From: Chlorobiota bacterium
GTDB taxonomy: Bacteria; Bacteroidota; Ignavibacteria; OLB7
Direction: 5' to 3'
Assembly: GCA_028287785.1 (NCBI GenBank)
Contig: JAQBOZ010000001.1
Coordinates: 1 to 64,000 of the forward strand
Length of the DNA: 64,000 nt
Part shown: positions 1,644-21,158 of the stretch, one piece after another
How positions within the stretch are numbered: the stretch's first letter is position 1
Layout: each line of letters starts with the position of its first letter
Position numbers and translations under genes: made by a program
The notes under the pieces: model-generated
What the model was told of the DNA's origin: nothing
What the model saw: only the letters and a program-made list of their open reading frames with translations
Databases searched by the model: none

Positions 1644-1841
1644 AGAGTATTCCTCCGGCTGATGATTGTTGGGAACGATATCGAAGGGATGAACACAACG
1701 CGCCGTCCAGCGCAGTCTTTTCAGGGATGCGTGGAGAGTGCGCGATATGCAGGCTTCAGGAAACCTGAATCGCTCCAATGAAGTAGTCTATCGGGAAATA
1801 TACGGGAGGATGGGGATCTCTGAACGCACTACCCTCCGGTC

Positions 1842-2143
1842 GGTAGCGACTCAGGTTAAATCTACTCTTCCGTCTGCTGAACAATCATCGATCGGCGATC
1901 CCTTCTTCACTCTTCAAGCTCCAGAGGAGCGCGCCGGTTGTAGCAACGATGCTCCCATCTTCTCGCTCAAGCTCCGTCGGAGCGAACCATCCGTGCCAAA
2001 TGGTACGCTCCGATGGAGCTTGAGATCATCGAAGACGTGGCATGACTATAACCGGTACGCCCCGATGGGGCTGGAAGGAGAGATGCCGGATGCCCTCGAT
2101 GAGTCCGAACAACATGAACTCTATCCCAAGCTGAGTCACTACC
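1842..2143. repeat. Palindromic MITE/REPIN-like element, copy 1
   Basis: Terminal inverted repeats GGTAGCGACTCAG / CTGAGTCACTACC; central inverted repeat CTCAAGCTCCGTCGGAGCGAACCAT (1966-1990) / ATGGTACGCTCCGATGGAGCTTGAG (2000-2024); similar over its length to 18151-18458. Confidence 0.85.
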
Positions 2144-3227
2144 CTCCGGTCGGTCGATCATGGGAGGTGGGGAGGCAGTCCGCGAAGAGGCCCATCTGCC
2201 CGCCGATTCCCGGTCGCCGGAAGTTCTCGGTGCTCAGGGCAATCCCCTCGCGATTCAGCCCCAGGCGCCGTGCGGTCAGCTTGAAGAAATGGGAGATCAT
2301 CCGCGCGCGCGCCCCGTTTCCCCCCATCCGGTCGCCAAATTCCGCCAGGTTCAGTTTGCCGTCGCGCATATCCTCCAGCGCATGCTGCACCTTGAGCGCG
2401 CGTCCGGGTTCCTCCCGCTCCAGCCAGTCCAGAAAGATCGGACGGACGGCGAGCGGCAGCCGGAGCATCGTAAAGAAGGCGTTGCGTGCTCCCGCATCGA
2501 CGGCGGCGTTCAGCAGCGCGGGGATCTCCTTATCGGTAAGGCCGGGGATGAGCGGGGCCATCATCACACCGACCGGAATGCCGGCCCCGGAAAGCCTGCG
2601 TATCGCCTCCAGCCTCAGCTCCGGGGTGGATGTGCGCGGCTCCAGACGGCGCGCCAGATCGCGATCGAGCGTGGTGATGGAGAGAAAGACCATGGCGCAG
2701 CGATGGCGCGCCAGCTCCGCCAGCAGATCGATATCCCGAAGGACAAGGGCGTTCTTGGTGATGATGCCGATCGGGTTGCGGAACTCCAGCATCGTTTCCA
2801 GAATCTCCCGCGTAATCCCGAACCGTCGCTCCGCCGGCTGATACGGATCGGTGACGCCGCTCATCGATACCACTGTCGGTTTCCACGAACGCTTCATCAT
2901 CGCCTCCCGCGCAAGCCGCGCCGCGTCCCGCTTTACCACGATTTTCGTTTCGAAATCGAGGCCGGCGTTGAAGCCGAGATATTCATGAGTGGGGCGGGCG
3001 TAGCAGTAGGCGCAGCCATGCTCGCAGCCGCGGTACGGGTTGATTGAATGGGTGAACGGGATATCGGGGCTGCTGTTGGTGGCGAATGCCGACCGGGAAT
3101 GATCGTCGATAAACTGCGTCCGGGGGTCCGGCTCCTCCGTGAAGCTCTCCCAGCCATCATCGAATCGCTCGCTTGTTCGCGGGGTAAAGCGATTCCCCGT
3201 ATCGAGATGTGTCCCGCGTTTCGCCAC
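2139..3227 (-). CDS. Radical SAM protein, PA0069/SplB-like family
   Basis: NPYRGCEHGCAYCYARPTHEYLGFNAGLDFETKIVVK, VSMSGVTDPYQPAE, APLIPGLTD. GTG start at 3227 proposed (VAKRGTHLDTGNRF); the track ORF runs to 3695. Stop codon lies in the terminal repeat of the palindromic element. Confidence 0.85.
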   Translation of the reverse strand: MAKRGTHLDTGNRFTPRTSERFDDGWESFTEEPDPRTQFIDDHSRSAFATNSSPDIPFTHSINPYRGCEHGCAYCYARPTHEYLGFNAGLDFETKIVVKRDAARLAREAMMKRSWKPTVVSMSGVTDPYQPAERRFGITREILETMLEFRNPIGIITKNALVLRDIDLLAELARHRCAMVFLSITTLDRDLARRLEPRTSTPELRLEAIRRLSGAGIPVGVMMAPLIPGLTDKEIPALLNAAVDAGARNAFFTMLRLPLAVRPIFLDWLEREEPGRALKVQHALEDMRDGKLNLAEFGDRMGGNGARARMISHFFKLTARRLGLNREGIALSTENFRRPGIGGQMGLFADCLPTSHDRPTGG

Positions 3228-3377
3228 TGTTCCCTTCTCCGTCCTGTGAAGCAAAAATATAGTGATGGTCTGCCGCGAATTTACATCGCCGAATCGGAAC
3301 GGGGATATAAATTTCCGTTTCAGCGACTCCCGAACGCTCACGAGGCCGGCCGGCCTCCCGATCAAATTTCCTTGCAG

Positions 3378-5252
3378 ATGCTCCATTACACACTTGGCCT
3401 CGACAATCCCTCCCGCCATCTCTTCTCGGTGGAGATCACGGTTCCAACCGGCGGCGAATCCCACGTCATCATAGCCTTTCCCGCGTGGTCGCCGGGGCGA
3501 TATTACATCTACGATTTCGCGCGCAACGTCCAGGAGCTTGCCGCCCGCGGCAAGGGGGGACGGGGGCTGGATGTGGAGAAGATCACCAAGGGGAGCTGGC
3601 GGGTGGAATGCGCTGGCGAGGAGTCGATCACCATTGCCTACAGGATGTTCGGCGACACGCTCAGCGGCACATTCTCGCAGCTCGATGACCGCCACGCATC
3701 GATCAACGGATCATCGGTCTTCGGCTATATCGAGGGTCGCCAGATGGAGCCGATCGAGCTGGAGATCATCGCCCCGGAGGGGTGGCGGGCATATACGGCG
3801 CTCAAACGGAAGCGACGGGGCGGGCGGGCGATGTTTGCCGCGGCCAATTACGATCTCCTCATCGATTCCCCGATCGAGGTGGGAACGCCCATGGCGCGCC
3901 GGTTCGCGCTGGAGGGGGTGGATTATCATGTGATCATCGATATCGCCGGCGGCGAGGGAGTGCGGCGGAGTGCCGAGCTGCGGGAGAAGCTGGACCGTTA
4001 CGTGGCCGATGTGGAGAAGGTGGTTCGCGCCTATACCACCACATTCGGGACGCCCGAGTTTCCTGAATACTACTTCCTGGTGAACATCGATCCGTTTGCC
4101 GCGAACGGCGACGGAATGGAGCATCTCACCTCCACGCGCCTTGTGCTGAACGGCTATCCGACAAACCAGGACCAGTACGACGCGCTGGTTGGTGTAACAT
4201 CCCACGAGTTCTTTCATATCTGGAATGTGAAGCGTCTCCGTCCCGCCGAGCTGGGACCGTTCGATTACTCCCGCGAGCTTCACACAACGCTCCTCTGGTT
4301 TGCCGAAGGGTTTACGCAGTACTACGGACATCTGATGCTCCGCCGCGCGGGCGTCTGGGATGACAGGCAGTTCTACAAGGAGATGGTCTCGGAGATCAAC
4401 ACGGTCGATCGATCACCGGGACGCTTCCATCGCAATCTCCGGGCGTCGAGCTTCGACACCTGGAATGCCGTGGGAGCCCGCAGCCCGATGGGGCTGGTGA
4501 GCAATTTCAAGAACACATACGTCAATTATTATTTCAAGGGGGCAGTTCTTGGCCTCCTTCTCGATCTCGAACTCCGGGAACGAACCGGCGGCCGGAAATC
4601 GCTCGACGATCTGATCCGGGATCTCTACCGCACCAGCTATGCGGAGGCCGGAAACGAGGGATATTTCCTTCGCGGCAGCGGTTTTTCGGAGCGGGATGTC
4701 TGCGATGCGGCCGAACGGGTCGGGGGAACCGATGCCCGGCGATTTCTTGAGCAGGCCATTACCAGTGTCGATGAGATCGATTATCGAAGCCATCTCCGCT
4801 ACGTGGGGCTGGAGCTGCTGCGGGGGCCGAAAAAAGGAAAGGATTCGGTGGATGAGGCCCGCCCGCAGATCTTCACGGGGATCATTCCTGCGGAACGCCG
4901 TGAACGTGGCGACGCGGAGTTCGTCACGGTGCTGAATGTTCTGGATGGCTCGCCGGCGGATCGCGCCGGGATCAGCGCCGGCGATCTGATCATCGCGATC
5001 GATGGAGAGCGGACAAACGGCGGCGGCTGGGAGAGCGTGATGGGGATGAAACGTCCGGGAGAAGTGATGGAAATCACGCTGTTCCGCGGGTCGCGTCTCC
5101 TTACGTTCCGGCTGGCGACCGAGGAACGGGACACGAGGGCATACAGGTTCGAGGTGATCGAGCCGGACACCCCGGTCCAGCGCCGCGCCAGAAAAAAATG
5201 GTTGCAGGGGGAGCGCTCCACGGCGGCGCGCTCTGAGAAATCCCACGGATAG
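3378..5252 (+). CDS. M61 family glycyl-aminopeptidase-like metallopeptidase with C-terminal PDZ domain
   Basis: N-term MLHYTLGLDNPSRHLFSVEI; HEFFHIWNVKRLRPAELGPFDYSRE; PDZ segment GSPADRAGISAGDLIIAIDGE. Internal ATG at 3378 used. Confidence 0.9.
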   Translation: MLHYTLGLDNPSRHLFSVEITVPTGGESHVIIAFPAWSPGRYYIYDFARNVQELAARGKGGRGLDVEKITKGSWRVECAGEESITIAYRMFGDTLSGTFSQLDDRHASINGSSVFGYIEGRQMEPIELEIIAPEGWRAYTALKRKRRGGRAMFAAANYDLLIDSPIEVGTPMARRFALEGVDYHVIIDIAGGEGVRRSAELREKLDRYVADVEKVVRAYTTTFGTPEFPEYYFLVNIDPFAANGDGMEHLTSTRLVLNGYPTNQDQYDALVGVTSHEFFHIWNVKRLRPAELGPFDYSRELHTTLLWFAEGFTQYYGHLMLRRAGVWDDRQFYKEMVSEINTVDRSPGRFHRNLRASSFDTWNAVGARSPMGLVSNFKNTYVNYYFKGAVLGLLLDLELRERTGGRKSLDDLIRDLYRTSYAEAGNEGYFLRGSGFSERDVCDAAERVGGTDARRFLEQAITSVDEIDYRSHLRYVGLELLRGPKKGKDSVDEARPQIFTGIIPAERRERGDAEFVTVLNVLDGSPADRAGISAGDLIIAIDGERTNGGGWESVMGMKRPGEVMEITLFRGSRLLTFRLATEERDTRAYRFEVIEPDTPVQRRARKKWLQGERSTAARSEKSHG

Positions 5253-18150: not shown

Positions 18151-18458
18151 GGTAGTGACTCAGTTTGAATCCAGTCTTCCATCTGCTGAACAATCATCGA
18201 TCGGCCATCACTGCTTCACTCTTCAAGCTCCGTGGGAGCGCGCCGGTTGTAGCAACAACGCTCCCATCTCCCGCTCAAGCTCCATCGGAGCGTACCATCC
18301 CCGCATCCGTGCCGAATGGTACGCTCCGATGGAGCTTGGAATCATGGGGGCATGGCGATGCTACAACCGGTACGCCCCGATGGGGCTGGAAGGACAGATG
18401 TCGAATGCCCTCCATGAGTCCAAACAGCATGAACCGTATCTCAACCTGAGTCACTACC
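18151..18458. repeat. Palindromic MITE/REPIN-like element, copy 2
   Basis: TIR GGTAGTGACTCAG / CTGAGTCACTACC perfect over 13 bp; central perfect 23-bp inverted repeat CAAGCTCCATCGGAGCGTACCAT (18276-18298) / ATGGTACGCTCCGATGGAGCTTG (18316-18338). Confidence 0.9.
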
Positions 18459-21006: not shown

Positions 21007-21034
21007 GCGAGATTCCAAGAATTTGGAATCTCGC
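21007..21034. terminator. Hairpin flanked by A and T runs, terminator-like
   Basis: AAAAAA-GCGAGATTCCAA-GAAT-TTGGAATCTCGC-TTT, 12-bp perfect stem. Confidence 0.65.
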
Positions 21035-21038
21035 TTTC

Positions 21039-21108
21039 AGCTCCATCGGGGCGAACCGGTTGTAGCAATGCCACATTCTCCATGATGCCAAGCTCCATCG
21101 GAGCGTAC
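21039..21108. repeat. Solo half of the palindromic element, copy 3
   Basis: AGCTCCATCGGGGCGAACCGGTTGTAGCAATGCCACATTCTCCATGATGCCAAGCTCCATCGGAGCGTAC matches one arm of copies 1 and 2. Confidence 0.8.
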
Positions 21109-21158
21109 TGTTGTTCATCAATGCGGGGATGCATCGGCACCTGCCGATGACATGGCCG

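Follow-up and report, generated by a model that had tools for sequence, protein, structure and literature searches.

A palindromic segment of about 300 bp with its own terminal inverted repeats lies near the beginning of the analyzed window, by which we mean the whole stretch of 64,000 nucleotides, and raises the question of what kind of element it is and what might have spread it. An earlier note, made from the letters alone, had described it as an inverted pair of hairpin-bearing halves resembling REP doublets or MITEs. All parts that the note described between positions 1842 and 2143 were found where it had placed them (Table 1). Its remark that no protein explains the segment was likewise correct: the element has no coding capacity, and the only open reading frames are those entering from the flanks. 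Overlooked at that time were the target site duplication CTCCGGTC, the size below the family consensus, which is mainly due to a small central deletion, and the further copies in the window. MITEs are typically about 70–300 bp long and have no coding capacity.

Table 1. Positions of the element, its parts, and its further copies in the window
Feature	Position	Strand	Remarks
Whole MITE copy 1	1842–2143	+	302 bp versus 309-bp family consensus; profile match 1–309, 330.6 bits; at least 40 scored homologous places in the genome
Left target site duplication (8 bp), CTCCGGTC	1834–1841		identical to 2144–2151
Right target site duplication (8 bp), CTCCGGTC	2144–2151		identical to 1834–1841
Left terminal inverted repeat, GGTAGCGACTCAG	1842–1854	+	consensus GGTAGTGACTCAG, then KTTGAATCC
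Right terminal inverted repeat, CTGAGTCACTACC	2131–2143	-	its CTA (2139–2141) is the TAG stop of the adjoining minus-strand radical-SAM ORF
Outer left REP-like module, AAGCTCC-AGA-GGAGCG, tail CGCCGGTTGTAGC	1916–1944	+	hairpin part 1916–1931
Inner left module, CAAGCTCC-GTC-GGAGCG	1968–1984	+	
Inner right module, inverted, CGCTCC-GAT-GGAGCTTG	2006–2022	-	
Outer right module, inverted, CGCCCC-GAT-GGGGCT plus tail	2044–2072	-	hairpin part 2058–2072
Second full MITE copy	18151–18458	+	no 8-bp duplication at the flanks
Fragment of third copy (profile positions 146–260)	21018–21131	-	profile match

The ends of the family read GGTAGTGACTCAGKTTGAATCC, with a terminal inverted repeat of 13 bp. A typical copy contains four modules of the design AAGC-NNN-loop-N'N'N'-GCG, two per direction, and each copy forms a single long hairpin carrying these four REP-like modules. 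In the motif formed by the hairpin and GTTGTAGCA, the spacing is 5 N. Folding, which the earlier note had proposed as a check, yielded an end-to-end hairpin for copy 1 as single-stranded DNA (-64 kcal/mol; z = -5.5 against dinucleotide shuffles) as well as for the full 309-bp copy L010 as RNA (-149 kcal/mol; z = -11.8). The stem triplets were complementary and varied among modules and species (TCC/GGA, CCC/GGG, GCC/GGC, ACC/GGT, and CGC/GCG). Complementary triplets were present at 165 of 304 candidate sites in the copies of this genome and at 18 of 35 in those of a congener (G001), versus 2 of 197 in a 35-kb background taken from the window.

The abundance of the element was determined in its own assembly, which comprises 4.75 Mb in 37 contigs; the DNA has a G+C content of 60.6% and encodes T9SS-like C termini, features that would fit the FCB group. 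A DNA search returned 85 matches, opposite-arm matches included, with 40 of the 182 first-look candidates scored. The 13-bp end occurred 169 times in the genome with at most one mismatch, and the module GGAGCGNNCCGGTTGTAGC 239 times with at most two mismatches; the reversed controls gave 0 in both cases. These genome-wide counts are far above chance. With a profile built from 42 aligned copies, a search of the fetched loci detected 123 distinct matches, which cover 29.9 kb or about 0.6% of the genome. Thus, the copy count that the earlier note had called for came to about 100 or more; the exact number is uncertain because nested or broken copies yield more than one match and many contigs begin or end inside a copy. 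Insertions of copies beside or within other copies were seen at L009 573–1195, L016 511–1136, and L018 516–1136. Contigs that start or end in a copy include C10, C11, C16–C19, C22–C25, C29, C30, C33, and C35 of this assembly. The repeat therefore breaks the assembly, and copies lacking a duplication may partly be misassemblies. In addition, a second, shorter MITE-like pair was noticed (L226 222–399 and L227 205–343, on C16) with ends GGTAGTGTCTCAGTTTG and the interior TTGTCATCCC...GGGAATGACAG; no 8-bp duplication was seen at its flanks.

Evidence for transposition came from the flanks of 60 full-length copies. The 8-bp flanks agreed at seven or more positions in 37 of them, compared with 0.2% of mismatched pairs. 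Mean flank agreement was 0.77 at length 8 versus 0.25–0.30 at the other lengths from 5 to 12. Flank identity was 5/8 or lower in 16 of the 60 copies, for which decay, recombination, or misassembly has to be invoked. The target duplications show that the element was inserted as a unit. Its inverted ends, the target duplications of 8 bp, and the large number of dispersed copies confirm the MITE reading of the earlier note, and we regard it as nearly certain that the segment is a MITE.

The other reading offered in the note, a REP/BIME doublet spread by a RAYT of the Y1 family with merely incidental inverted ends, draws on the REP-like hairpins of the interior with their GTAG-containing tail and on three Y1_Tnp matches in the genome. 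None of the three, however, had a module or a paired end within about 1.5 kb, and one was broken by two TAG codons. Furthermore, among 20 module sites picked for having no listed end nearby, 15 belonged to full-length or nearly full-length elements and five to fragments, so that no module standing alone was seen in this sample. The precise 8-bp duplications also speak against a RAYT: such duplications are typical of DDE transposases and, to our knowledge, IS200/IS605-type Y1 transposition produces no target duplication. Mobilization by a RAYT is contradicted by these data, and we consider it very improbable.

The gene context was analyzed with a hexamer coding score, which replaced a longest-ORF test that was uninformative because of spurious ORFs at high G+C. 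By this score, the 100 bp on either side of the copies were non-coding (4% coding-like versus 58–70% at 250–350 bp). At copy 1, the stop codon of the radical-SAM ORF (window 2139–3695, minus strand) is supplied by the inserted MITE end, and the C terminus of this ORF is about 12 residues longer than that of the intact relative L224. Intergenic placement would suit a regulatory RNA or terminator that the host spread or kept for its function, as would the very stable fold, the hairpin core, which is more conserved than the near-end sequence, and the complementary stem triplets that differ among modules and species. Selection against gene disruption also yields intergenic placement, however, and the target duplications speak for insertion as a unit. 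Covariation among the copies of this genome was almost nil, the core being simply invariant, and no Rfam family matched the element. Moreover, a DNA search of 60 related genomes did not find it, except for a 28-bp stretch in the congener. A host-maintained function as the cause of its spread is thus scarcely credible. The search of plasmids gave no match either for the element or for a short element of a class relative.

What, then, might move this MITE? A pattern scan of viral contigs revealed a 3386-bp transposon (L103) with ends GGTAGTGACTCAGTTTGAA, identical to the MITE consensus over 19 bases, and with the target duplication CAGTCGGG matching at 8/8 positions. Its cargo comprises a transposase (P0001), a P63C-domain protein, and an ABC substrate-binding protein. 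P0001 scored above the cut-off of PF03400 (IS1). With NF033558 (IS1 family) it reached 72.8 bits and the transposase of G001 57 bits, both below the cut-off of 100; all 16 aligned transposases matched this model at E < 0.001, and 15 of the 16 matched PF03400. The candidate catalytic residues D67, D139, and E206 were conserved among the aligned transposases. In classical IS1, two ORFs are linked by a frameshift, and a zinc finger is present at the N terminus. The presumed helper is a single ORF of about 300 residues without two frameshifted ORFs, and no C2C2 motif was visible at its N terminus. Single-ORF IS1 groups are known, and target duplications in the IS1 family measure 8–10 bp. A search for related solved structures found none.

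Relatives of the transposase were present at 39 loci in viral contigs as well as on plasmids and were mostly bounded by GGTAGTG-NN-TCAGTTTGA. Exact 8-bp duplications together with a related transposase and such ends were found at 15 or more viral loci besides L103, on three Alphaproteobacteria plasmids (L161–L163), and in the congener; in all, 19 or more relatives of L103 share the end type and the exact duplication, and every well-bounded relative has this end type. The set includes proteins annotated as "IS1 family transposase" on Acidiphilium, Mesorhizobium, and Hoeflea plasmids, where GGTAGTGNNTCAGTTTGA-type ends and exact 8-bp duplications occur as in the MITE. The plasmid transposons are 2.3–4.6 kb long and carry a transposase and passenger genes, whereas the MITE is non-coding and has only the ends in common with them. 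Passengers recorded across L118–L155 and L161–L165 (IMG/VR contigs, Alphaproteobacteria plasmids, and the congener) were the P63C-domain protein, the ABC substrate-binding protein, and an XRE/Peptidase_M78 regulator. The end followed by GTCATNCC did not occur in the viral contigs. The distinctness that the earlier note had suspected for the family holds for the interior and not for the ends, which are those of an IS1-like group of transposons with a wide distribution. This is a new MITE family of an already known kind.

The note had advised looking for a transposase with matching ends. The ends matched over 19 bases in L103 and by type in further viral contigs, on plasmids, and in the congener, and the transposases were of the IS1-like group rather than RAYT/Y1. 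No intact cognate was detected in the element's own assembly. Here, only a decayed remnant is left (L117 and L168; C35, ~28 kb), which contains stops, has suffered a deletion, and is split by an rve-type (IS3-like) transposase gene that inserted into it. The stretch L168 7208–7225 may be a degenerate right end. End positions 8–9 vary among elements: the MITEs of this genome are AC-type like L103, and the autonomous copy of the congener (L165; 4621 bp, exact 8-bp duplication) has GG-type ends GGTACTGGGTCAATTTGA. With only a decayed transposase in the own genome and a GG-type copy in the congener, mobilization in trans is an inference. A MITE need not always have an autonomous partner with the same ends in its own genome. 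Since the assembly lacks a helper with the exact AC-type ends and has only a decayed relative, either the family no longer moves, or it has a helper that was missed in assembly or is brought in by phages or plasmids.

The absence of the cognate enzyme from the genome could also be taken to mean that another DDE family moves the MITE and that the likeness of its ends to those of IS1-like transposons is convergent. IS1595, IS256, and ISL3 also produce 8-bp duplications, and some transposases of the set matched IS6, IS481, and IS1595 models weakly. Against this explanation stand the 19 identical end bases of L103 combined with the same duplication length, and an end type common to all well-bounded relatives, the three plasmid elements and that of the congener among them. 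Convergence is thus quite improbable, and an IS1-like helper is likely. Overall, we assign a probability of roughly 0.88 to the reading of the segment as a non-autonomous DNA transposon whose ends are recognized in trans by an IS1-like transposase. In the mechanism we propose, a DDE transposase of this group that recognizes GGTAGTGNNTCAGTTTGA ends would act in trans on both ends and insert the element by means of cuts with an 8-bp stagger. The hairpin modules would be passengers, and transcribed copies may serve as terminators or mRNA 3' ends.

A scan of the genome collection for the same ends gave matches in MAGs labeled Acidobacteria, Sulfotelmatobacter, FCPU426, Alphaproteobacteria, and Limisphaerales. 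The congener harbors a different MITE of about 269 bp with the same ends and 7–8/8 duplications in four copies. It resembles the element of the window in ends, duplications, and the AAGC-N3-loop-N3'-GCG module design, but its stem triplets differ, and its interior was otherwise unmatched in the DNA search with the own element. The FCPU426 (G337) and Acidobacteria (G335) elements share the end type but have other REP-like interiors. In the Acidobacteria MAG the interior was GGCACGACTGAAGTCGTGCC; in the FCPU426 MAG the interiors were CGTCATTCCGAG / CGTCATTGCGAG and CCCTCACCC / GGGTGAGGG. Most of the copies read in these two MAGs had duplications matching at 7 or 8 of 8 positions. At L487–L490 of the FCPU426 MAG, further elements with the same ends have the repeat CCCTCACCC...CTCTCCCC / GGGAGAGGG...GGGTGAGGG as their interior, and 8/8 duplications were present in four of four. 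An AGCCCC-loop-GGGGCG hairpin also lies inside same-ended FCPU426 elements; the cross-phylum motif mentioned in the earlier note was thus recovered in part. A 38-bp element consisting of two inverted ends alone, with a 7/8 duplication, was seen in an Alphaproteobacteria MAG (L059 6722–6759). It is unusual that one type of transposon end is repeatedly paired with different REP-like palindromes.

The modules were further compared with the GTAG and CGTC super-families of REPs (PMC3733652), which are likewise short intergenic hairpins paired head-to-head or tail-to-tail. The defining feature of GTAG REPs is an unpaired GTAG that immediately adjoins the palindrome on one side (PMC3733652). In our module, about 8 nt separate the GTAG from the stem, and, unlike both super-families, the modules sit inside an element bounded by terminal inverted repeats with target duplications. 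For CGTC REPs no dedicated transposase has been reported, and their transposase was left as an open question (PMC3733652). A CGTC-type REP sequence was found inside FCPU426 elements, where GTCATTCCGAGGAGCAGAG sits 19 bp inside a listed end in 11 of 17 copies and two further copies of it occur in elements that show an 8/8 duplication and a degenerate end. A general test on 353 CGTC REPs from 240 stretches of viral contigs was negative: within 220 bp of them, the end motif was not in excess over the reversed control, and the link between these REPs and the ends is therefore restricted to some genomes. More broadly, IS1-like transposases that recognize GGTAGTGNNTCAGTTTGA ends might carry REP doublets in several phyla, those of CGTC type included; the palindromes would spread as the interior of MITEs with these ends, and many free REPs would be remnants of such elements. 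This proposal is speculative and rather unlikely. A literature search with the letters of these ends and repeats returned unrelated papers only, among the matches listed.

For this organism, the practical effect of the MITE copies is that they fragment the assembly. Beyond it, one end type links MITEs of unrelated phyla to transposons on phage contigs and plasmids. Regarding the question of the CGTC REP transposase (PMC3733652), these elements make one answer testable, for some genomes at least. With ends, a duplication length, and a candidate transposase group, they offer a concrete mobility mechanism for intergenic palindromes that are abundant and are commonly classed as REPs without a known mobilizer.
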